Origin: a virus | Direction: 5' to 3' (one strand) | Virus record (IMG/VR): IMGVR_UViG_3300022745_000145 | Span: 1 to 23,189 of that record | DNA: 23,189 nucleotides | Shown here: positions 1,980-18,514 of the stretch, in pieces | How the letters are laid out: every line of letters begins with the position of its first letter | Position numbering within the stretch: the first letter of the stretch is position 1 | Notes under the pieces: generated by a model | The model's input: the letters and a program-made list of their open reading frames with translations, nothing else | Told to the model about the DNA's origin: nothing | Databases searched by the model: none | Position numbers and translations under genes: made by a program

Positions 1980-2419
1980 TGTTGGCCCACACCGCGCTGC
2001 TGGCCGCCCTGGAAGCGGCGCTGCTGGCCGCCCCGGCGGTGGCTGGGGGTGAGGTGGCCCGCTCGCGCTCAGCGCCCGTGAAGGCCACGGCCGCCCAGGC
2101 TGTGCGCCTGCGTTTGCTGGCTGCTGACCCTGAGCCGCTGAGTGGCTACCTGGCCCCGGCCGACTGCACCACCCGCGTGGCCGTGGAGTGCCTGGGTCGC
2201 GTGGACTCAACCGGTGATGCCGATGAGGCCGCCGGCCAAGTGCTGCAGGCCGTGCACACGCGCCTGGCGGCCAATGCCGCTGCGCTGGAGGCGGCCGGAT
2301 TTTCTCTGCAGCTGTACCCGCAGCTGCGCTGGGACCAAGAAGACGCCGATGAGCGCATTGGCGTCGTGATCGCGATCTACACGGTGACCCACCGTGTGCA
2401 CACGGAAGACCTGTCATGA
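1979..2419 (+). CDS. Putative tail terminator / minor tail protein
   Basis: This 146-residue protein overlaps both neighbours (TGATG at its start, ATGA at its end). Its layout is an Ala/Leu-rich N-terminal helix, a VRLRLLAADPEPLSGYLAP segment, a central strand (TTRVAVECLGRVDS), a helical stretch and a final strand series (GVVIAIYTVTHRVHTEDLS). This order of secondary structure and the position before the tube gene resemble lambda gpU or gpZ-like tail completion proteins, which cap the tail and join it to the head. No decisive motif is visible, so the specific role is inferred from context. Confidence 0.5.
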   Translation: MLAHTALLAALEAALLAAPAVAGGEVARSRSAPVKATAAQAVRLRLLAADPEPLSGYLAPADCTTRVAVECLGRVDSTGDADEAAGQVLQAVHTRLAANAAALEAAGFSLQLYPQLRWDQEDADERIGVVIAIYTVTHRVHTEDLS

Positions 2420-2664
2420 CCACCAAACCCACCCGGATCCTGCCCGATGCAGACGGCCACGAACCCACGCCCCCTGCTGGTGGCCGCTGGGTTCGTGACC
2501 TCGATGGCGGCCTGACCCCTGCTGACGCGCAGACGGCCCATGCCGCCGGCCTGGCCTGGGGCGATGAAGCCAATGAGGCCCAGGCCGATGCCGCCGCGCC
2601 CGCTGCCACCGCAGTGGGCACCCCCGCCGACACCAGCGCCGAAGGCGCGCAACCGCAGGAGTGA
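2416..2664 (+). CDS. Small phage protein of unknown function
   Basis: This 82-residue protein starts inside the stop of the upstream gene (ATGA). It is low in complexity, with an acidic Ala/Pro-rich C-terminal half and a central GGRWVRDLDGGLTPAD segment. It could be a tail-assembly accessory or a cleaved spacer protein, but I do not recognise it. Codon use matches its neighbours, and the next gene begins three bases after its stop with an AGGAG motif overlapping its end, which supports co-translation with the tail genes. Confidence 0.6.
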   Translation: MTTKPTRILPDADGHEPTPPAGGRWVRDLDGGLTPADAQTAHAAGLAWGDEANEAQADAAAPAATAVGTPADTSAEGAQPQE

Positions 2665-2667
2665 GCC

Positions 2668-3633
2668 ATGTCCGGTTCGATTGACAACACCGTCATCCTG
2701 GCCAAGATCGAGACCACCTCTGGCACCGATGCGGCCCCCACGAACACCGCCGACGCGGTGGCCATTCGCGTGGCCAACCTGAGCGTGAAGTACGTGCAGA
2801 ACTTCGCCGAGCGCGACGTGATGACCGGCACCTTCTCTGCGCCCGACAAGCTGCCGTTCAGCCGCCGTGGCCAGATCTCGTTCAGCGTGGAGCTGTCTGC
2901 CTCTGGCACGGCTGGCACCGCCCCGCAGTGGGGCGACCTGGTGATGGCTTGCGGCATGGCCGAGACCATCACGGCGGGCTCTCGCGTGGAGTACACGCCG
3001 GTGAGCACCGGCTTCAAGACGCTGACCATGTGGGCCTACATCAACGGCCGCCTGGAGCAGTACAACTTCGCCATGGGCACCTGCAAGCTGAGCATGAAGA
3101 CGGGCGGCGTGCCGAGCCTGGACTTCAGCTTCCAGGCCCTGGTGACCAGCGTGGGCGTGAGCGCCCCGCCTGTGCCCACTCTGACCGCCTGGAAGCGCGG
3201 CCAGGCCGTGGGCACAGCTGCCACCTCCAAGCTGAGCGTGGGCGCGGTGACCTACTCGGCGGGCGCGCTGTCTGGTGGCACCCAGTACAGCTTCGACAGC
3301 CTGGACATCGACTTCGCCAACGATGTGCAAGACCTGGCCCTGGTGGGGCAGGAATCCATCGGCATCTACGGCCGCAACCCCACCGGCAAGCTGGTGGTGG
3401 ACGCCACGGCCACGCAGCACGCCCAGTTCGTGACCGACATGGCCGCCGGCACCACCAGCGCCTTCGGCCTGGTGCACGGCACCACGGCAGGCAGCAAGGT
3501 GCTGCTGTACGCACCGGTGGGCGTGCTCACCTCTGCCGAAGACCAGATCAACGGCAAGGTGATGATCTCCAGTCTGGGTATGACGCTGCGTCCCTCTGCT
3601 GGCAACGATGACCTGCGGATCGTGTGCCTGTGA
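2668..3633 (+). CDS. Phage tail tube (major tail) protein
   Basis: This 321-residue protein has the pattern of large siphophage tube proteins: an N-terminal IDNTVILAKIETTSGTDAAP segment, AVAIRVANLSV, then a series of strands (LTMWAYINGRLEQYNFAMGTC) and a C-terminal VMISSLGMTLRPSAGNDDL. Tube proteins stack as rings around the tape measure and carry DNA during ejection. The length is at the long end for the family, perhaps with an inserted second domain around residues 160-300. Start: ATG 2668, preceded by CAGGAG at 2656-2661. The stop overlaps the start of the chaperone gene (TGATG). Confidence 0.8.
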   Translation: MSGSIDNTVILAKIETTSGTDAAPTNTADAVAIRVANLSVKYVQNFAERDVMTGTFSAPDKLPFSRRGQISFSVELSASGTAGTAPQWGDLVMACGMAETITAGSRVEYTPVSTGFKTLTMWAYINGRLEQYNFAMGTCKLSMKTGGVPSLDFSFQALVTSVGVSAPPVPTLTAWKRGQAVGTAATSKLSVGAVTYSAGALSGGTQYSFDSLDIDFANDVQDLALVGQESIGIYGRNPTGKLVVDATATQHAQFVTDMAAGTTSAFGLVHGTTAGSKVLLYAPVGVLTSAEDQINGKVMISSLGMTLRPSAGNDDLRIVCL

Positions 3634-3965
3634 TGATCAGCCTCAACCCCGCCCCCACCTTCCCGGCTGACGTGGACATCACCGAGCCGGGCGCCACCGA
3701 CACGCTCAAGGTGGCCTTTGTGTTCAAGCACAAGGGCCGCAAAGAGCTGGATGAGTTCATCAGCCGGCCCGCCAAGGCCAAAGAAGCCGGGCAGGAGCTC
3801 AAAGACCCTGAGTACCTGGGCGAGATCGTTGTGGCCTGGCCGGGCGTGGACGCGCCCTTCACGCCCGAGAACTTCGCCACCTTCCTGGAGCAGCGCCCGG
3901 CATCGGGCCATGAGATCTACCGCGCGTACCTGCGGGCGCTGACGGAGTCGCGCGTAAAAAACTGA
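3633..3965 (+). CDS. Tail assembly chaperone (gpG-like), zero-frame product
   Basis: A 110-residue protein between the tube and tape measure genes, where siphophages carry the tail assembly chaperone. I chose ATG 3633, which overlaps the tube stop (TGATG), over the GTG at 3624. Recognisable features are a beta-rich N-terminus (KVAFVFKHKGRKELDEFISRPAK) and a C-terminal helical part (FTPENFATFLEQ..YRAYLRALTESRVKN). The chaperone coats the tape measure during tail assembly. The last codons contain the slippery heptamer A AAA AAC (3956-3962) just before the TGA, so a fraction of ribosomes should shift -1 into the next frame and make a longer gpGT-like fusion of about 225 residues. Confidence 0.8.
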   Translation: MISLNPAPTFPADVDITEPGATDTLKVAFVFKHKGRKELDEFISRPAKAKEAGQELKDPEYLGEIVVAWPGVDAPFTPENFATFLEQRPASGHEIYRAYLRALTESRVKN

Positions 3966-12044: not shown

Positions 12045-13349
12045 ATGTTCGACGCTCGCAAAGCCAAGCTGCTACAGCCGGGGCAGCACCTTACCATCGA
12101 TGAGGCGCCTGGCCTGCGCCTGGAGGCCTCCCAGACCGTCAGGGCCTGGATCTACCGATACCGGTCCCCGGTGGATGGCCGGATGCGTCAGGTGCGCATT
12201 GGGCGGTGGCCAGCGCTGGGCTATCAAGCCGCATGGGTGGCCTGGAATGAGCTGCGTGAGCGGCGTGACCGTGGTGAAGATCCGGCCCAGCAGAAGCGGC
12301 AAGCACGGCAGGCTGAGGTGGCCGTGTTGGTCCAGGCCAAGGCGGAGGCCAAGGCGGCCGCCTACCTGGTGCGCCATCTCTGTGCAGACTACGTGGGCAG
12401 CCTCCAGCACCGGCGCAAGGCCAAGGGCTGGAAGGAGGTGGAGCGCATCTTTGACACCATGCTGGGCGATCTGGCCGACATGCAGCCCACGGCCGTGACG
12501 CGTGCCGTGGCCTATGCCGCCATCGAGGCGCACGCTGCCACGCCGGTGCAGGCGTCCAAGCTGCGCCTGGAGCTGGGCGGGGCCTGGGACTATGGCCTGG
12601 ACAGCGGCAAGCTGCCAGAGGACACGCCGAACTGGTGGCGGCAGATCTTGCGTGGCAAGCTGCGGACCAAGGGCAAGACCATCGTGGGCAAGCCTGCGCC
12701 GATCAAGCGCGTGCTGTCGGCGCATGAGCTGGGGCAGCTGGTGGCGTGGCTGCCGAACTTCCCGCGCATGACGGGTGACGCGGTGACGCTGTACCTCTGG
12801 ACGATGACCCGGGGCGCTGAGATCGTGGCCATGCATGCCAGCGAGATCCATGACGAGGGTCCTGCAGGGCTGTGGTGGCAGATCCCCAAGGCGAAGACGA
12901 AGAATGCCCGCATTGAGCAGGCCACCGACCTGCGGGTGCCGCTGGTGGGGCGTGCCGCTGAGGTGGTGCGGCGGCGCCTGGCTGCTCCTGGGCCTGATGG
13001 GCACCTGTTCCACTCGGCCCGCGCTGCCAAGGGCTACATGGACCAGAAGGCCGTTGGGGTCTCAGTGTGGTCCCGCATGCCCTATTCGGAGACGCAGCCC
13101 GAGTACATCCGTGCGCGGTTGCCGGTGACGCATTGGGCGCCGCATGACCTGAGGCGCTCTTGTCGCACGCTGCTGGCCTCGATGGGCTGCCCGTCAGAGG
13201 TTGGTGAGGCGTTGCTGGGGCACGTGCAGCCTGGCATTGAGGCGGTCTACAACCTGCACAGCTACGATGCTGAGCGGCTGGTCTGGCTCACGAAGCTCAG
13301 CGCGAAGCTGGAGGAGTTGGCGGCAGGTAGTACGGGCACTCAAACGTGA
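12045..13349 (+). CDS. int: Tyrosine site-specific integrase (P4-type)
   Basis: A 434-residue tyrosine recombinase that would integrate and excise the phage. The N-terminal ~85 residues carry the DUF4102-like arm-binding domain (LTIDEAPGLRLE, WIYRYR, RIGRWPALGY). The core-binding part spans about 105-210 and the catalytic domain about 222-415. Catalytic residues are visible: Arg256 (MTRGAEI), Lys near 282 (IPKAKTKN), His367-x-x-Arg370 (PHDLRRS), His393 (LLGHVQPG) and Tyr402 nine residues later, the spacing of lambda Int. ATG 12045 lies three bases after an arm-type repeat, so the enzyme may repress its own gene. The 3' end overlaps a convergent minus-strand gene by 53 bases. It looks intact. 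Confidence 0.92.
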   Translation: MFDARKAKLLQPGQHLTIDEAPGLRLEASQTVRAWIYRYRSPVDGRMRQVRIGRWPALGYQAAWVAWNELRERRDRGEDPAQQKRQARQAEVAVLVQAKAEAKAAAYLVRHLCADYVGSLQHRRKAKGWKEVERIFDTMLGDLADMQPTAVTRAVAYAAIEAHAATPVQASKLRLELGGAWDYGLDSGKLPEDTPNWWRQILRGKLRTKGKTIVGKPAPIKRVLSAHELGQLVAWLPNFPRMTGDAVTLYLWTMTRGAEIVAMHASEIHDEGPAGLWWQIPKAKTKNARIEQATDLRVPLVGRAAEVVRRRLAAPGPDGHLFHSARAAKGYMDQKAVGVSVWSRMPYSETQPEYIRARLPVTHWAPHDLRRSCRTLLASMGCPSEVGEALLGHVQPGIEAVYNLHSYDAERLVWLTKLSAKLEELAAGSTGTQT

Positions 13350-13518: not shown

Positions 13519-13700
13519 TCTTTCGGGGGTTTCAGCTTGTGCGCCTTGATCAGCGCCGCTTCGATGGTTTCGCCCTTGCCTTCCGGCTGAGCTTCCAGCC
13601 AGTCGACCAGCCAGCGCGGCAACCGGAAATTGCACTGCTCGCGCTTTAGGTGGTCGGGGGTCGCTGGGCGCCCCCGCTTCTGCTCGGGGGCTGCGCTCAT
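13515..13700 (-). CDS. Putative ribbon-helix-helix DNA-binding protein
   Basis: A 61-residue basic protein. The C-terminal 45 residues (REQCNFRLPRWLVDWLEAQ, then GETIEAALIKAHKLKPPKE) have the strand-helix-helix pattern of Arc/MetJ-like regulators: a short strand with alternating residues, then two amphipathic helices. Start ATG 13700 overlaps the preceding stop and its own stop overlaps the next start. It may regulate phage genes as a dimer. The DNA target is unknown; the AT-rich repeats upstream of its operon segment (14001-14059) are one candidate. Confidence 0.65.
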   Translation of the reverse strand: MSAAPEQKRGRPATPDHLKREQCNFRLPRWLVDWLEAQPEGKGETIEAALIKAHKLKPPKE

Positions 13701-13948
13701 TCCTCGTCGGCCTCTTCGGTCACGGTGAAGTCGCCTTCGTCCAGGAAGATCACCGAAGGGTTGCCGCTGTTGGTGTATTGGCCGCGCAGCTCGTAGTGCG
13801 GGCTGGTGCCTTCGGCCACGCCGTCTTCGAAAGAGCGCAGGGCTTCCAGCGTCACGGCGGTCAGGTCGATGTTGCTGCGGGCCGTGGCGCTGAACCAGGC
13901 GTTGAACTTGGCGGTGCCTTGGTCGGTCAGTTCGAAGTTGGTGATCAT
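13697..13948 (-). CDS. Small acidic phage protein
   Basis: An 83-residue protein. I chose ATG 13948 over the longer frame because AAGGAGAG precedes it at good spacing. It is acidic, with a FELTDQGTAKFNAWFSATARSN N-terminal helix region and a C-terminal VIFLDEGDFTVTEEADEE strand region. No family recognised. It is first of three coupled genes (stop and next start share ATGA) and lies downstream of a possible promoter at 13998-14026. Confidence 0.6.
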   Translation of the reverse strand: MITNFELTDQGTAKFNAWFSATARSNIDLTAVTLEALRSFEDGVAEGTSPHYELRGQYTNSGNPSVIFLDEGDFTVTEEADEE

Positions 13949-13997
13949 GGTGCTCTCCTTGGTTGCTGGCTTCGCGTTGTGCGCCGCCGATGGAATA

Positions 13998-14026
13998 AAT
14001 GTAAAACAACAAAGCAAGCAGCACAA
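13998..14026 (-). promoter_or_regulatory. Possible sigma70-type promoter for the three small genes at 13.3-13.9 kb
   Basis: Read on the minus strand: TTGTGC (14021-14026) as -35, a 17-base spacer and TACATT (13998-14003) as -10. It lies in an AT-rich gap about 50 bases before ATG 13948. The match is moderate, and the spacer/-10 region is covered by one of two direct repeats that could be operators. Confidence 0.35.
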
Positions 14027-14059
14027 GGGGTTCTGCAAGATTTATTCGTAAAACAACAA
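14001..14059. repeat. Pair of 12-bp direct repeats GTAAAACAACAA, possible operators
   Basis: GTAAAACAACAA occurs at 14001-14012 and 14048-14059, 47 bp apart. The 8 bases before each copy are reverse complements of one another (GAATAAAT at 13993-14000, ATTTATTC at 14040-14047). The left copy overlaps the possible promoter. This AT-rich block contrasts with the GC-rich surroundings. Confidence 0.6.
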
Positions 14060-14062
14060 TCC

Positions 14063-14118
14063 GCCTAACTCGTTGGTCAAGCGGACGCCTTCGGCGCCGC
14101 TTGCCGCCAGGGTTAGGC
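14063..14118 (+). other. attC: attC-like integron recombination site (59-base-element type)
   Basis: The 56-bp element begins GCCTAAC (14063-14069, fits R'' RYYYAAC) and ends GTTAGGC (14112-14118, fits R' GTTRRRY). Inside, CAAGCGG (14078-14084) pairs with CCGCTTG (14097-14103), and CGCC (14086-14089) with GGCG (14093-14096) around a TTC loop. A single unpaired A at 14085 (T on the bottom strand) matches the extrahelical base known from attC sites of the aadA type, which share the TCAAGC-GAC-TTCG layout. The predicted crossover is G/TTAGGC at the right end. It lies two bases past the stop of the minus-strand gene ending at 14120. An ordinary imperfect palindrome is the alternative, but box and bulge match together. 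Confidence 0.7.
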
Positions 14119-14119
14119 C

Positions 14120-14395
14120 TCAGACGCGCGCCGGGTCACGTGGGCGGGCTGGAGCATCGCGCGGGCCGCCTGTCTGCTTTGAGCCCACAGGCTGCAACTT
14201 CGGCTTCGTCACTTCCAGCTGGAAGTCGTCAAACGTCTGCGTCTCCTGTGGTTTGCCGTCTTTGTCCAGCGCCTTCGGCTGCAGCGTCATGCGCCAGCAC
14301 CCGTTCAGCCACTCAGTTCGTGCCACGCAGACACCTGTGAAGCCGCTCACTGTGTCGCGGGCTTCGTCGCCGAGTTGCACATTCACTTTGGTCAT
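14120..14395 (-). CDS. Small conserved phage protein
   Basis: A 91-residue protein. ATG 14395 is better spaced from the AGGAG at about 14404-14408 than the in-frame ATG at 14401. The body (VQLGDEARDTVSGFTGVCVARTEWLNGC, WRMTLQPKALDKDGKP, FDDFQLEVTKP) matches a beta-rich family common in tailed phages, where the block G-x-x-G-V-x-x-x-R-T-E-W-L-x-G-C recurs; function unknown. The tail is Pro/Arg-rich. The stop codon stands two bases from the attC-like element, an arrangement like a gene and its attC in a cassette. Confidence 0.65.
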   Translation of the reverse strand: MTKVNVQLGDEARDTVSGFTGVCVARTEWLNGCWRMTLQPKALDKDGKPQETQTFDDFQLEVTKPKLQPVGSKQTGGPRDAPARPRDPARV

Positions 14396-14441
14396 CGTCA
14401 TTCTCCTGTTGTGCCCCTTGGGGCGGTTGGTTGTGTGTTGG

Positions 14442-14804
14442 TCATGGCTGGTCGGGCGGTGAAAACTCCCACGGGCACGGCGGCAGGCCCTGGCCTGTGG
14501 CCTCTTCCAGGCGGCGCGTCAGCACGCGCAGGGCGAACCAGCCGTGGCAGATATCGCGCTGGCCTGGCAGATTCTTGTGGCAGATAAACGGCACGCCCTC
14601 GCTGACGGCCTTGAGCACATCGCTTTGGGTCTGCGCACATCCATTCGGGACGGTGCCCAGGCGGAAGGCGCAGCTCTTGCACTTGGTGTCGGGCTCACCC
14701 TCGGCGGCCAGGCTGGCGCACATGCGGTCGGCCAGCTTGGCCATGGTGGCGCCCATCTGCTTGCCCAGCGGGCTCACGCGGCGGTGGTCTTTGGTGGGGT
14801 CCAT
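14442..14804 (-). CDS. Cys-rich phage protein, possible metal-binding
   Basis: A 120-residue protein starting at ATG 14804, 7 bases after the phosphoesterase stop. It carries CKSCAFRLGTVPNGCAQT in the middle, then FICHKNLPGQRDICHGWFAL, giving a C-x2-C...C...C-H...C-H set that could bind zinc or an iron-sulphur cluster. Short proteins with a CxxCAFRxGTxPN block are common in phage early regions; no function is established that I know of. Between this gene and the next (14396-14441) only a small GCCCC-TT-GGGGC hairpin is seen. Confidence 0.65.
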   Translation of the reverse strand: MDPTKDHRRVSPLGKQMGATMAKLADRMCASLAAEGEPDTKCKSCAFRLGTVPNGCAQTQSDVLKAVSEGVPFICHKNLPGQRDICHGWFALRVLTRRLEEATGQGLPPCPWEFSPPDQP

Positions 14805-14811
14805 GATGACG

Positions 14812-15642
14812 TCAGGCGGTAGCCAGTTCGTGGTTGCGGGGCACGCGGAAGCCTGCCGCCCGTGCGTGCCCTCCCCCACCATACTGCGCGGCGATCTCGG
14901 ACACATCCAGCCCTTCATCCGCTGACCGCAGGCTGAACACACGGTGCTCTGCCGTGTCCCAGTAGCAGGCGGCGAACGGCTCGCCCTGGGCCATCAGGGC
15001 GCCTGCATCGCTGGACATGGTGTAGGGCAGGCTTGCCGCCGGCACGTCATGCCCGCCAATGACCAGGCGGCGCTTGCACACCGTCACCAGCTCGGCCACG
15101 TCCTTGTGGTGCTTGCGCTCGATGGCGGCGCCAGCTGCGGTCATCTGCAGCAGCTGCACTTGGTCAGCGGACATCAGCTTGTCCCACTTCTCAAAGGTGT
15201 AGGCGTGCGAGAAGACAAAGGCCTGGATCTCGCGGGTGCCGGGCAGCTTGAAGCGCCACAGGTCGCGGTCTTCCACGTGGCCCAGCAGCAGCGGGCGGGG
15301 CTGATCAGGAAAAAGGAAGTCCCAGGCCAGGGTGGCGCCGCTGCGGTTGAGGTCCGTCAGCATGCTGAACTTGTCGCTGGTCACGCTGGCCAGGTCTTCG
15401 ATGGACGTCTTGTGGTGGTCGATCAGCACGATGTGCGCGGCGGTGTCCAGCATCTTCAGCACGGTGTCGCGCTTGTAGCTGAAGTCCACCAGGTAGACGC
15501 AGCGGCCGGTCACGTCAGGCGGCTCCTGGCCATAGACGCCGGGATGGAAGTCGCAGGCGTGGCCGTATTTGTGCCAGAAGCACCAGGCGGCGCTGAAGCC
15601 ATCGGCGCAGTTGGCGTGGTAGATCACCAGGGGTTTGCTCAT
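14812..15642 (-). CDS. DHH/DHHA1-family phosphoesterase
   Basis: A 276-residue protein. Motif 1 is IYHANCADGFSAAW (8-20), Asp53 lies in LVDFSY, the DHH motif is LIDHHKT (DHH 75-77), and the DHHA1 domain ends with GGGGHARAAGF (about 255-265). These residues bind the two metals and substrate in NrnA-like oligoribonucleases and related exonucleases. Phage versions with HANCADG are familiar. The start at 15642 overlaps the stop of the reverse transcriptase (ATGA), so the two are translated together. A role in degrading short RNA or in DGR function is possible but not shown. Confidence 0.85.
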   Translation of the reverse strand: MSKPLVIYHANCADGFSAAWCFWHKYGHACDFHPGVYGQEPPDVTGRCVYLVDFSYKRDTVLKMLDTAAHIVLIDHHKTSIEDLASVTSDKFSMLTDLNRSGATLAWDFLFPDQPRPLLLGHVEDRDLWRFKLPGTREIQAFVFSHAYTFEKWDKLMSADQVQLLQMTAAGAAIERKHHKDVAELVTVCKRRLVIGGHDVPAASLPYTMSSDAGALMAQGEPFAACYWDTAEHRVFSLRSADEGLDVSEIAAQYGGGGHARAAGFRVPRNHELATA

Positions 15643-17012
15643 GTCGGGGTCTTTCTGAAGGCTTTGGTGAAGGTGGCGTTGACGCAGTGCCCACGGGCCA
15701 GCAAGGCCTGGGCGATCTGCACCTGCGCGGTGTGGCTGTGTGAGGCTTGCCGCACCAGGCCCAGGTAGCTGTTGCCGGCGGCAAAGACGTCCTCGGCTGG
15801 CATGTCGGCCAGGCGGCGCAGCGCGGTGCGCAGGGTGCGTGGCCTGGTGGTGCGGCGCCAGGGCTTGAGCACGTGGCCCACGAAGTCGATGCCGTGATCG
15901 ACCCGCTGCAGGATGGTCTTGCTGGGGTTGAGCTGCAGCCCCAGCCTGGCGGGCAGCATGGCGGTGATGTCGGCCAGGGCATGGTTGAGCCACTGGGGTG
16001 ACTGGTGCACCAGCACAAAGTCGTCGACGTAGCGCACGTAATGCGGGGCGCGCAACCGGTGTTTGACGTGCTGGTCCAGCACGTCCAGCAGCACGTTGGC
16101 AAAGAACTGACTGGACAGGTTGCCGATGGGCAGGCCCTGGTCGGCCGGCGCGTTGAACAGGCTCTTGTGCGGCGGCACCAGGCTCAGCAGGTCTGTGCGG
16201 CCGCGCACCTCTACGTCGTGGCGCGGGTCGTGCATCAGCACGCGCTCGGTGAGGTCCAGCCACCAGGGCTCGGTCACGCGCTTGGCCAGCAGCTGCAGCA
16301 CCACCGGCTTGCGGATGCTGACGAAGAAATTGGCCAGGTCGCACTTGAGGTAGTGGGCGGGCTGGCTCCAGTTCTGGGTGGCGCTGCGCACCTGGTGCTC
16401 CAGGCGCTTGGCGGCGTAAAGCGTGCCACGGCCTGGAATGCATGCGCAGCTGTCGGCGGTGAAGCTGGCATAGAACCTGGGCGAGATGTGCCGGTACAGC
16501 AGGTGGTGCACGATGCGGTCGCGGAATTCAGCGGCCCAGACCTCGCGGGGCTTGGGCCTGGTGATCACAAAGCAGATCGAGCGGCCAGGGCTGTAGATGC
16601 CGCTGGCCAGCTCGTCGTGCAGGTCGCACAGGTTGCGCTCCAGGTTGGCCTCGAAGGCCAGGGCGCTGGCGCTGTTGCGCTTGGTGCGGCGGCAGTCCAG
16701 GTAGGCTGCCACCAGTTCTTCGAACAGGGTTGAATCTGCGGACGGCTCGGGCGCGGAGCTCAGCGCTCTTGTTGTTGTTGTTCTGGTTGCCGTTGTTGAA
16801 GTTCTGATACCAGGCGTTGTTGTCCGAGTACTGCGTCGGTGCGCGCTTTCTACGTCGCCCTGGCGAAGGCCGTGGCCGATCACCGGGGAAACTGCACCAG
16901 GCCGGGCCCGGACGTGGCCGGCGGTCTCTGTGGCGTGCATGTCGGTGCCCTCGTGAGGCAGCGGCGCGACCAGATTCAAGATAGGCGCGGGCATGAGAGC
17001 CTTGACTGTCAT
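15639..17012 (-). CDS. DGR-type reverse transcriptase
   Basis: The RT copies the TR RNA into mutagenised cDNA. The conserved domain runs from about residue 95 of 457: TRPKPREVWAAEFRDRIVHH (block 1), YLKCDLANFF with Asp225 (motif A), GLPIGNLSSQFF at 293-304 (motif B, with the IGxxxSQ form typical of DGR enzymes instead of QGxxxSP), YVRYVDD at 325-331 (motif C), LGLQLNPSKT and IDFVGHVLKP (motifs D, E). The start is uncertain. ATG 17012 overlaps the avd stop (ATGA), ATG 16940 has a GAGG eight bases before it, and a GTG lies at codon 101. With either ATG, the template repeat falls inside the coding frame (residues about 59-94, read as Thr-rich sequence). The 3' end overlaps the phosphoesterase gene. 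Confidence 0.9.
   Translation of the reverse strand: MTVKALMPAPILNLVAPLPHEGTDMHATETAGHVRARPGAVSPVIGHGLRQGDVESAHRRSTRTTTPGIRTSTTATRTTTTRALSSAPEPSADSTLFEELVAAYLDCRRTKRNSASALAFEANLERNLCDLHDELASGIYSPGRSICFVITRPKPREVWAAEFRDRIVHHLLYRHISPRFYASFTADSCACIPGRGTLYAAKRLEHQVRSATQNWSQPAHYLKCDLANFFVSIRKPVVLQLLAKRVTEPWWLDLTERVLMHDPRHDVEVRGRTDLLSLVPPHKSLFNAPADQGLPIGNLSSQFFANVLLDVLDQHVKHRLRAPHYVRYVDDFVLVHQSPQWLNHALADITAMLPARLGLQLNPSKTILQRVDHGIDFVGHVLKPWRRTTRPRTLRTALRRLADMPAEDVFAAGNSYLGLVRQASHSHTAQVQIAQALLARGHCVNATFTKAFRKTPT
16732..16836 (-). repeat. TR: DGR template repeat (TR)
   Basis: Read on the minus strand in the frame of the targets, it encodes a run of AAC codons: SDNNAWYQNFNNGNQNNNNK followed by SAELRARAVRRF. 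The GC-rich end (16732-16771) is nearly identical in both variable repeats and would be the initiation of mutagenic homology. The stretch 16772-16836 differs from VR1 and VR2 only at template adenines. Similarity stops at 16834-16836. It lies between avd and the conserved RT domain, the usual DGR position. Confidence 0.95.
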
Positions 17013-17374
17013 GCTGCAGGCCCCGTGTTCGTGGTCTTCCTGATCCATCCATTGGCCTGCTTGCCGATGCTGTCCAGCAGCTGCGTGGCCTTGGCCCACA
17101 GCGCCATGGAGATGTCGCGGCGGTCAAAGCACACCCGCAGCAGCACCTGCACGGCGCGCTGGTGTGTGAGCAGCTGGCGGATGTGCTTGGCGCGCTCTTC
17201 GGCCTTGGTCGCGTTGGCCAGGGCCATCAGGTCAAGCATCTCGACGCAGTGGGTGGCAACCTTGTCGCCCATGGTGCGCTTGACGCCGCGTGGCATGTTC
17301 ATCTGCGCGTCGACGGCGAGCGACATCAGCTGGACGCCGGTGCGGTAGATGGGCAGGTCAGTGTGGATGGCCAT
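17009..17374 (-). CDS. avd: Avd, accessory variability determinant
   Basis: A 121-residue, mostly helical basic protein with the Avd/S23 four-helix-bundle pattern: DLPIYRTGVQLMSLAVDAQMNMPRG (helix 1 after LPIYR), VKRTMGDKVATHCVEMLDLMALAN (helix 2), AKHIRQLLTHQRAVQVLLRVCFD (helix 3) and ALWAKATQLLDSIGKQANGWIRK (helix 4). In DGRs, Avd forms a pentamer that binds the RT and TR RNA and is needed for mutagenic cDNA synthesis. It starts 19 bases after the first target gene and ends in an ATGA overlap with the possible RT start at 17012. Its position between target and TR equals that in Bordetella phage BPP-1. Confidence 0.9.
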   Translation of the reverse strand: MAIHTDLPIYRTGVQLMSLAVDAQMNMPRGVKRTMGDKVATHCVEMLDLMALANATKAEERAKHIRQLLTHQRAVQVLLRVCFDRRDISMALWAKATQLLDSIGKQANGWIRKTTNTGPAA

Positions 17375-17379
17375 GTTTC

Positions 17380-17400
17380 AAAGGATCAAAGGATCAAGCG
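17380..17400 (-). repeat. 21-bp element at the end of VR1, repeated after VR2
   Basis: The 21 bases here and those at 17895-17915 agree at 18 of 21 positions. Both overlap the stop of their target gene and contain AAGGATCAAGCG plus a second GGATY copy 9 bp away (plus strand). It could help target recognition, as post-VR elements do in other DGRs, or mark the extent of a duplication. Confidence 0.7.
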
Positions 17401-17876
17401 GCGAATCTGCGGACGGCTCGGGCGCGGAGCTCAGCGCTCTTGTCGTAGCCGTGCTGGCAGCCGTAGCGGAAGTTCTGATACCAGGCGTCGTCGTCCGAGG
17501 ACTGCTCACTCGACCAGTAGCCGCGGGCCTCGAAGGAGCCCTTGAGGTTGGCGAACAGCAGCGCCTGCTCGCGGCGGGTGGGCAGTTCGCCGCCAGCCTT
17601 CGAAGCCCACTCGATGGCGTCGGGCCAGTCGATGTCTTCGGCCTGGCCGGGCAACAGCACCAGGTGGTGGCTCGGCGTGCCGTCTTCATTCAGGACCAGG
17701 CCCGCGTAGCGCTCACCCTTGGCTAGGGTGAGGTCAAAGCCCGTCAGGCTGTAGGTGGTGGGCAGGTCTGCCTCCAGCTTGCTGATCAGCTCGCCCAGCT
17801 TGGCGTGCAGGTCACGCGCAGCAGGCAGGGCCAAACTGTTAACGCTCAGGGGGATGGTTATGTCTTCGGCGGGCAT
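17394..17876 (-). CDS. DGR variable protein 1, DUF1566/C-type-lectin-like
   Basis: A 160-residue protein. ATG 17876 has GGAG eight bases upstream; an in-frame TTG at 17912 is less likely. N-terminal ~55 residues are helical (LPAARDLHAKLGELISKLEAD); then comes a DUF1566 domain with YAGLVLNEDGTPSHHLVLLPG, ELPTRREQALLFANLKG and YWSSEQ. The variable repeat covers residues about 125-158 and turns the template DNNAWYQNFNNGNQNNNN into DDDAWYQNFRYGCQHGYD, then SAELRARAVRRFAA. Such proteins display the diversified residues on a lectin fold. Similar DUF1566 proteins without a DGR are frequent in phage early regions; their job is unknown. No signal peptide or tail-fibre domain. Confidence 0.88.
   Translation of the reverse strand: MPAEDITIPLSVNSLALPAARDLHAKLGELISKLEADLPTTYSLTGFDLTLAKGERYAGLVLNEDGTPSHHLVLLPGQAEDIDWPDAIEWASKAGGELPTRREQALLFANLKGSFEARGYWSSEQSSDDDAWYQNFRYGCQHGYDKSAELRARAVRRFAA
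17403..17505 (-). repeat. VR: Variable repeat 1 (VR1)
   Basis: Aligned without gaps to TR. The first 40 bases (17403-17442) are identical to TR. In the next 63 positions there are 13 substitutions, all where the TR coding strand has A. It ends seven bases before the stop of variable protein 1. Confidence 0.95.
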
Positions 17877-17894
17877 GTGCGTCGCTCCAGGGTT

Positions 17895-17915
17895 GAAGGA
17901 TTGAAGGATCAAGCG
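17895..17915 (-). repeat. 21-bp element at the end of VR2 (second copy)
   Basis: Second copy of the element at 17380-17400, with three mismatches (positions 1, 8 and 9 of the 21). It spans the stop codon of variable protein 2 and the start of the 32-base gap before ATG 17876. Confidence 0.7.
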
Positions 17916-18514
17916 TCGATCTGAATCAAGCGGACGGCTCGGGCGCGGAGCTCAGCGCTCTTGCCGCCGTAGTCCTGGCTGCCGTAGCAGAAGTTCAGAT
18001 ACCAGGCGTTGACGTCCGAGTACTGCGTGCTCGACCAGTACAGGCTGTCTTCGAACGCTTCGGCGTTGCCCGCCTGGAAGGCCTCGGCCGTCGTCTGCAG
18101 CACGGGCTGGATGGCGTAGGGGAAACCGGCCGGCACGCTGCTGGGGTTGTCGCCGTCGCGGAAGTAGCCGCCGGTTTCCTCGGTGGTGGGCTTGAGATGG
18201 CGATAGGCCAGCTCCAGCACGTCACGGGCGGGCAGCACCCAGTCGGTGAAGCCGCCGATGGTCAGGCCCGTGGCCCACTTGGCCAGTTCGCTGCCAGCCT
18301 CGGCCATGGCCAGGGTGTTGGTCACGCTGTCAAAGGTGATGCGGGCGGCAGGCACATCGGTGTAGGTGGGCAGCCAGGCGCCCTTCGTCTCGCCTTCGGC
18401 CTTCGGGGCCCAGATGACAGCCAGCAGCGCGGCGCCGTGGCGGATCACGCCGCCGAAGTGGCCGCCATGTTCAGGCAGGTGGGTGCCGATGCTCGGGGTG
18501 TTGTTCAGGTTCAT
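17909..18514 (-). CDS. DGR variable protein 2, DUF1566/C-type-lectin-like
   Basis: A 201-residue protein starting at ATG 18514 (weak Shine-Dalgarno). N-terminal half: GGHFGGVIRHGAALLAVIWAPKAEGE and ITFDSVTNTLAMAEAGSELAKWA. The DUF1566 core follows with GFTDWVLPARDVLELAYRHLKP, GGYFRDGDNPSSVPAGFPY and YWSSTQ. The variable repeat covers residues about 163-195 and reads DVNAWYLNFCYGSQDYGG, then SAELRARAVRLIQ. Its N-terminus is unrelated to that of variable protein 1, so this is not a simple whole-gene duplication; only the VR and the DNA just after it are shared. It is first of the DGR genes; the 75-base gap upstream shows no clear promoter. Confidence 0.88.
   Translation of the reverse strand: MNLNNTPSIGTHLPEHGGHFGGVIRHGAALLAVIWAPKAEGETKGAWLPTYTDVPAARITFDSVTNTLAMAEAGSELAKWATGLTIGGFTDWVLPARDVLELAYRHLKPTTEETGGYFRDGDNPSSVPAGFPYAIQPVLQTTAEAFQAGNAEAFEDSLYWSSTQYSDVNAWYLNFCYGSQDYGGKSAELRARAVRLIQIDA
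17930..18028 (-). repeat. VR: Variable repeat 2 (VR2)
   Basis: Aligned without gaps to TR. Its first 34 bases (17930-17963) equal the TR end. The following 65 positions carry 13 substitutions, all at adenines of the TR coding strand. Eight of the altered positions are not changed to the same base, or not changed at all, in VR1, so the two targets diversified separately. Confidence 0.95.

Follow-up and report, generated by a model that had tools for sequence, protein, structure and literature searches.

Organization of the locus

The window, which is the whole stretch of DNA analysed here, is an IMG/VR virus record with a length of 23,189 bases. Genes on its plus strand have family matches to a head decoration protein, tail terminator, minor tail protein, tape-measure protein, and endolysin. 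Judged from the decoration, tape-measure, and tail genes together with the endolysin and an integrase, the window is part of a tailed temperate phage. Past the integrase gene, an operon oriented leftward contains a diversity-generating retroelement, a gene for a DHH phosphoesterase, and a gene encoding a 93-residue protein (Table 1). A hairpin-forming sequence is positioned between the 93-residue gene and the start of an 83-residue gene at position 13948. No family match was found for the 83-residue gene, and the left end of a cassette was not found. The AT-rich gap between the hairpin and the 83-residue gene contains an exact direct repeat, GTAAAACAACAA, at 14001–14012 and 14048–14059, 47 bases apart, which may be an operator.

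The retroelement extends over positions 15639–18514 and includes a reverse transcriptase, bAvd, an RNA matching Rfam family RT-15, and two Lcl_C variable proteins. A 126-nucleotide repeat occurs in the region three times, at 16738, 17409, and 17930. The RT-15 match at the retroelement is the only Rfam match across the window, with none at the hairpin.

Table 1 Features surrounding the hairpin, in window coordinates.
Feature	Position	Strand	Basis
Arm-binding phage tyrosine integrase, distinct from IntI	12045–13349	+	
83-residue gene left of the site; 5′ region runs into R″	13697–13948	−	
attC site of 56 bp with canonical polarity (R″ left, R′ right)	14063–14118	+	Covariance model R1, DNA fold
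R″ box GCCTAAC	14063–14069	+	Sequence; in search pattern, conserved across 52 aligned viral sites
L″ box TCAAGCGG	14077–14084	+	Sequence, alignments
Extrahelical A setting attC polarity	14085	+	Alignments of bacterial and viral sites
L′ box CCGCTTG (other sites CCGCTTA; departure at 14103)	14097–14103	+	Alignment
R′ box G^TTAGGC, predicted crossover 14112/14113	14112–14118	+	End of 93-residue gene similarity, sister-phage junctions
93-residue gene (phrog_16275), antisense to attC	14120–14401	−	

The attC site

The first-pass annotation had identified the hairpin as an integron attC site, and all the parts that it named are located where it placed them. The outer boxes of attC sites follow the patterns RYYYAAC and GTTRRRY and are mutually complementary, as are GCCTAAC and GTTAGGC in the window. 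The second characteristic of attC sites, an L″/L′ stem in which one arm carries extrahelical bases, is also present, with A14085 as an extrahelical base. The tip stem has the sequence CGCC/GGCG. The DNA hairpin has a predicted folding energy of −20.4 kcal/mol (z −4.1), and none of 200 shuffled sequences is as stable. Related phages have likewise conserved R boxes, which removes the objection that the hairpin might recur without them. The window is the only one of 52 aligned viral sites with a G at position 14103 (CTTG), nearly all others having CTTA; the second extrahelical base is therefore displaced by one.

The covariance model R1 was built from 42 aligned attC sites of bacterial genomes, with the window left out, because an identity test free of circularity was wanted. 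In an unfiltered scan of the window, the site scores 52.4 bits (E 8e-12) on the plus strand and 24.1 bits on the minus strand, whereas nothing else in the window rises above chance level (best other score 9.5 bits, E 1.1). The model check that could have refuted the annotation thus returned a clear match, and the sequence evidence confirms that positions 14063–14118 are a genuine integron attC site.

The annotation had also noted a minus-strand stop codon close behind R′. The stop codon (TCA, 14120–14122) does adjoin the box; however, the gap is one base rather than two. The polarity of the site is that indicated by the extrahelical base, and the right-hand gene does abut R′, as its spacing had suggested. 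The apparent conflict between these two signs of orientation is the rule in phages, because the cassette genes of phages are antisense to attC.

The window contains neither a complete integron nor an array. Its record, a 23-kb fragment, has no TIGR02249 match, so that the intI gene required of a complete integron is missing. The single site falls short of a CALIN, which is defined by at least two attC sites close together without intI. No attI motif is present in the window, and no phage in INPHARED has DNA similarity to positions 13900–14450. Without an intI gene in the window, the site would be usable only by an IntI acting in trans, from another prophage or the host.

The site may accordingly be regarded as an orphan attC that is possibly decayed, with a recombination activity of its own that is only inferred. 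One reading of these absences is that the integron has been lost and the site persists as a dead fossil that no longer recombines. The attC site upstream of the 93-residue cassette is missing from the window as well, and the unusual change of L′ at 14103 would fit the same history. By contrast, the R boxes, the polarity-setting base, and the stem are all intact, and the R1 score falls inside the range of sites from arrays with cassette turnover. The loss of function is a real possibility, albeit with the odds against it.

Relatives of the 93-residue gene

The 93-residue protein is encoded at eight viral loci. In L002, L003, L006, L007, and L008, attC sites are located on the strand opposite to the gene, and in L003 the gene forms a cassette flanked by attC on both sides. 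The similarity of the window gene to those of L002, L003, and L007 stops at position 14112, the predicted crossover. An integron integrase scoring above the TIGR02249 cut-off is encoded in the records of both L003 and L006, and that of L006 matches the IntI4 structure 2A3V with an E value of 1.5e-80. The L006 record is clearly a tailed phage. Its phage integrase shares 57% identity with the integrase of the window phage, and the record has intI with an adjacent attC array. In L006, intI separates the cassettes from the phage integrase; the arrangement of the window is alike, except that intI is missing. No attC was found within the examined stretches of Acidovorax phage Aval, which is near the window phage by its integrase.

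In L003, a cassette with its attC site is duplicated in tandem at positions 2206–3384, with identical open reading frames at 2262–2594 and 3337–3669.

Cassette turnover

Near-identical phages (94–99.99% identity) were compared. The difference between L013 and L078, which are 94–98% identical, consists of one cassette between two attC sites. Three segments (442, 551, and 684 bases) distinguish L176 from L177 (98.6–99.9% identical), and two distinguish L189 from L190. In L189, GGGGCACAAC and TTAAATTCAACGACACC, the latter from attI, adjoin one another; L190 has a segment of 336 bases precisely at this joint. Where junctions were read base by base, each follows the AAC of an R box, corresponding to G^TT. 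The sequences thus show that related phages gain and lose whole cassettes with exact joins, with IntI inferred to be the catalyst. This agrees with the annotation's suggestion that a phage carrying attC could collect cassettes; the delivery of cassettes to bacteria, which it also suggested, is conjectural.

The exact junctions at R boxes bear on the idea that the hairpin serves mainly as an RNA element, a terminator or mRNA stabilizer of the leftward operon, with an incidental likeness to attC. The hairpin is indeed located one base behind a stop codon, and the minus strand contains a weak terminator-like match whose tail is rich in T; nevertheless, the match to the bacterial attC model, the cassette junctions of the relatives, and the presence of intI beside such arrays make this explanation very improbable. 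An intrinsic terminator, with a GC-rich stem and U tract beyond chance expectation, was rejected, since the two terminator-like matches found are no excess over the mean of 1.4 in shuffled sequences.

Orientation of genes relative to attC

A strict attC pattern yielded 68 viral stretches, and a narrower version of it 56 bacterial stretches. Genes flanking the sites were assigned to a strand from codon usage in 210-bp flanks; homology supports these calls but does not replace them. Both flanks are antisense to attC at 46 sites of viral contigs and both are sense at none, whereas the corresponding numbers for bacterial genomes are 1 and 23 (Fisher p 1e-17, with the reservation that sites from related phages are not fully independent). 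At attC sites of intI loci with both flanks called, 87 have antisense genes on both sides and none has sense genes on both. The sense-strand open reading frames of cassettes match Pfam families. Only 1 of the 91 longest open reading frames of the antisense control does so, which provides independent support for the strand calls. By these calls, antisense genes are the rule at viral attC sites, and the 93-residue gene of the window conforms to it.

Integron integrases of phages

An alignment search for IntI returned 228 viral stretches with relatives, of which 80 were kept. Most of these data are metagenomic viral contigs. Matches to attC are present at 47 of the 58 loci that have at least 1.5 kb upstream of intI. 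After the removal of duplicates, 134 of 141 attC sites are upstream of intI and on the opposite strand, in arrays of up to eight sites. A conserved motif upstream of intI, YAAC-TTGAATTCGACCGC-spacer-GCGTAAC, is read as attI. The defining parts of an integron, IntI, attI, and an attC array, are therefore represented in the related phages by integrases above the family cut-off, the attI-like motif, and the arrays. The cassettes of typical integrons have genes that are sense to attC and read away from intI; those of the related phages do not, and instead read towards intI and end at the attI-like motif, usually near the phage integrase. A second integrase is encoded at most 3.2 kb from intI, on either strand, in 32 of 44 records (family search with a hand count). 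An earlier homology search with three integrases for an opposed integrase had found only six loci and dropped overlaps such as that in L148.

The distinct viral IntI analysed number 69, of which 57 form a phage-only clade apart from all the sampled bacterial IntI, with a support of 99/95 in one tree and an SH-aLRT of 95 in another. The other 12, including that of L200, group with bacterial integrases. It is hardly credible that the contigs are bacterial integrons of the usual kind, or host flanks, wrongly classed as viral: bacterial-type IntI do occur in some viral records, such as L071 and the class 1-like L170, L171, and L175; however, terminase large subunit matches are found in a good part of the intI records, many of which are fragments, a single 43-kb record (G002) combines terminase, portal, tail fibre J, integrase, and intI, and both the phage-only clade and the gene polarity set these loci apart from bacterial integrons.

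Some individual records are of separate interest. The IntI of L170, L171, and L175 are near-identical and group with a copy from a bacterial genome (L265). The viral record L200 has a bacterial-type IntI and yet an inverse cassette array, which suggests replacement of the integrase. No isolated phage in INPHARED was found to have a close IntI of the phage-only clade; only nine of its records have IntI relatives, including the phages of Qi et al. 2023, two fragments, and Virus Rctr41k. All neighbours of the gene for the distant IntI of Virus Rctr41k (L281, KX853513) share its strand, and R1 finds no attC match in this record.

Comparison with known integrons

Bacterial chromosomal integrons of Burkholderiales and Xanthomonadales have the same attC boxes and hairpin type as the phage sites, and the covariance model crosses over between them at a high score; however, their genes are sense to attC, unlike those of phage cassettes. 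In bacterial chromosomal integrons, intI is divergent from the cassettes. Shewanella phage vB_SspM_M16-3 carries a phage integron with intI, like the present phages, but with the bacterial layout of an intI diverging from the cassettes and a LexA box. In the reverse integron of Treponema, intI is oriented unlike that of class 1 integrons, and intI itself is the turned part. In the present phages, by contrast, the turned parts are the genes, which are inverted with respect to attC and read in the direction of intI.

Integrons or attC sites were described from 21 phages by Qi et al. 2023 (PMC9892861); when six of the phage attC sites were tested, IntI1 recombined five of them with attI1. Those phages, like the present ones, are tailed phages with attC sites and cassettes. 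Their arrays are mostly of typical polarity, with intI captured from host integrons, whereas the present phages have a phage-only IntI clade, an attI-like motif, and a consistently inverse polarity. This study was the sole relevant find in the literature on phage-encoded or inverse integrons, and no earlier description of a phage integron lineage with inverse polarity, or of a phage IntI clade with inverse cassettes, was found; preprints and most subscription papers were outside the search. The presence of attC in phages is thus already known, while a phage IntI lineage with inverse cassettes is apparently unreported.

Proposed mechanism and implications

The preferred reading, to which we assign a probability of about 0.86, is that the window contains a genuine but orphan attC site in a temperate phage, whose relatives have complete “inverse” integrons operating as follows. 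The proposal starts from what can be read in the sequences, namely the identity and polarity of the site, gene orientation, the IntI family, the attI-like motif, and turnover with exact junctions. In an inverse integron, the cassette array forms the 3′ end of an operon; its genes are antisense to attC and point towards intI, which is immediately preceded by an attI-like site, and a phage integrase is usually nearby. The phage IntI, as the inferred catalyst, would act on the folded bottom strand of attC, which is here the mRNA-like strand, and join sites at G^TT, resulting in the insertion and removal of cassettes. Expression of the array is inferred to depend on a phage promoter upstream of the array, away from intI, rather than on an integron Pc promoter. 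Such expression would select for genes pointing at intI, although this selection, like any activity of the window site, is an inference.

Integrons are known as a gene-gathering device of bacteria, and attC sites in phages have so far been read as occasional captures. A phage-only IntI clade with attI, arrays, opposite polarity, and strain-level turnover would imply that the device is operated by the phages themselves. The cause of the inverted polarity becomes a testable prediction. We tentatively suggest, at somewhat less than even odds, that polarity keeps the phage integron lineage apart from the bacterial cassette pool and that anti-restriction and counter-defence genes are over-represented in the phage pool. 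If so, any cassette that passed from a phage integron to a bacterial one, or back, would land antisense and be silent, and the phage pool would mirror bacterial integrons, which store defence genes.

Phage integrons would also offer a concrete route by which phages could quickly exchange small genes, including several for DNA modification, which can protect against restriction. Among 109 sense-strand cassette open reading frames, Pfam matches include C5 methyltransferases (five), PAPS reductase-like proteins (four), Mom (three), N6/N4 methyltransferases (two), Dam (two), and one weak match to the Acb2/Tad1 hairpin domain.
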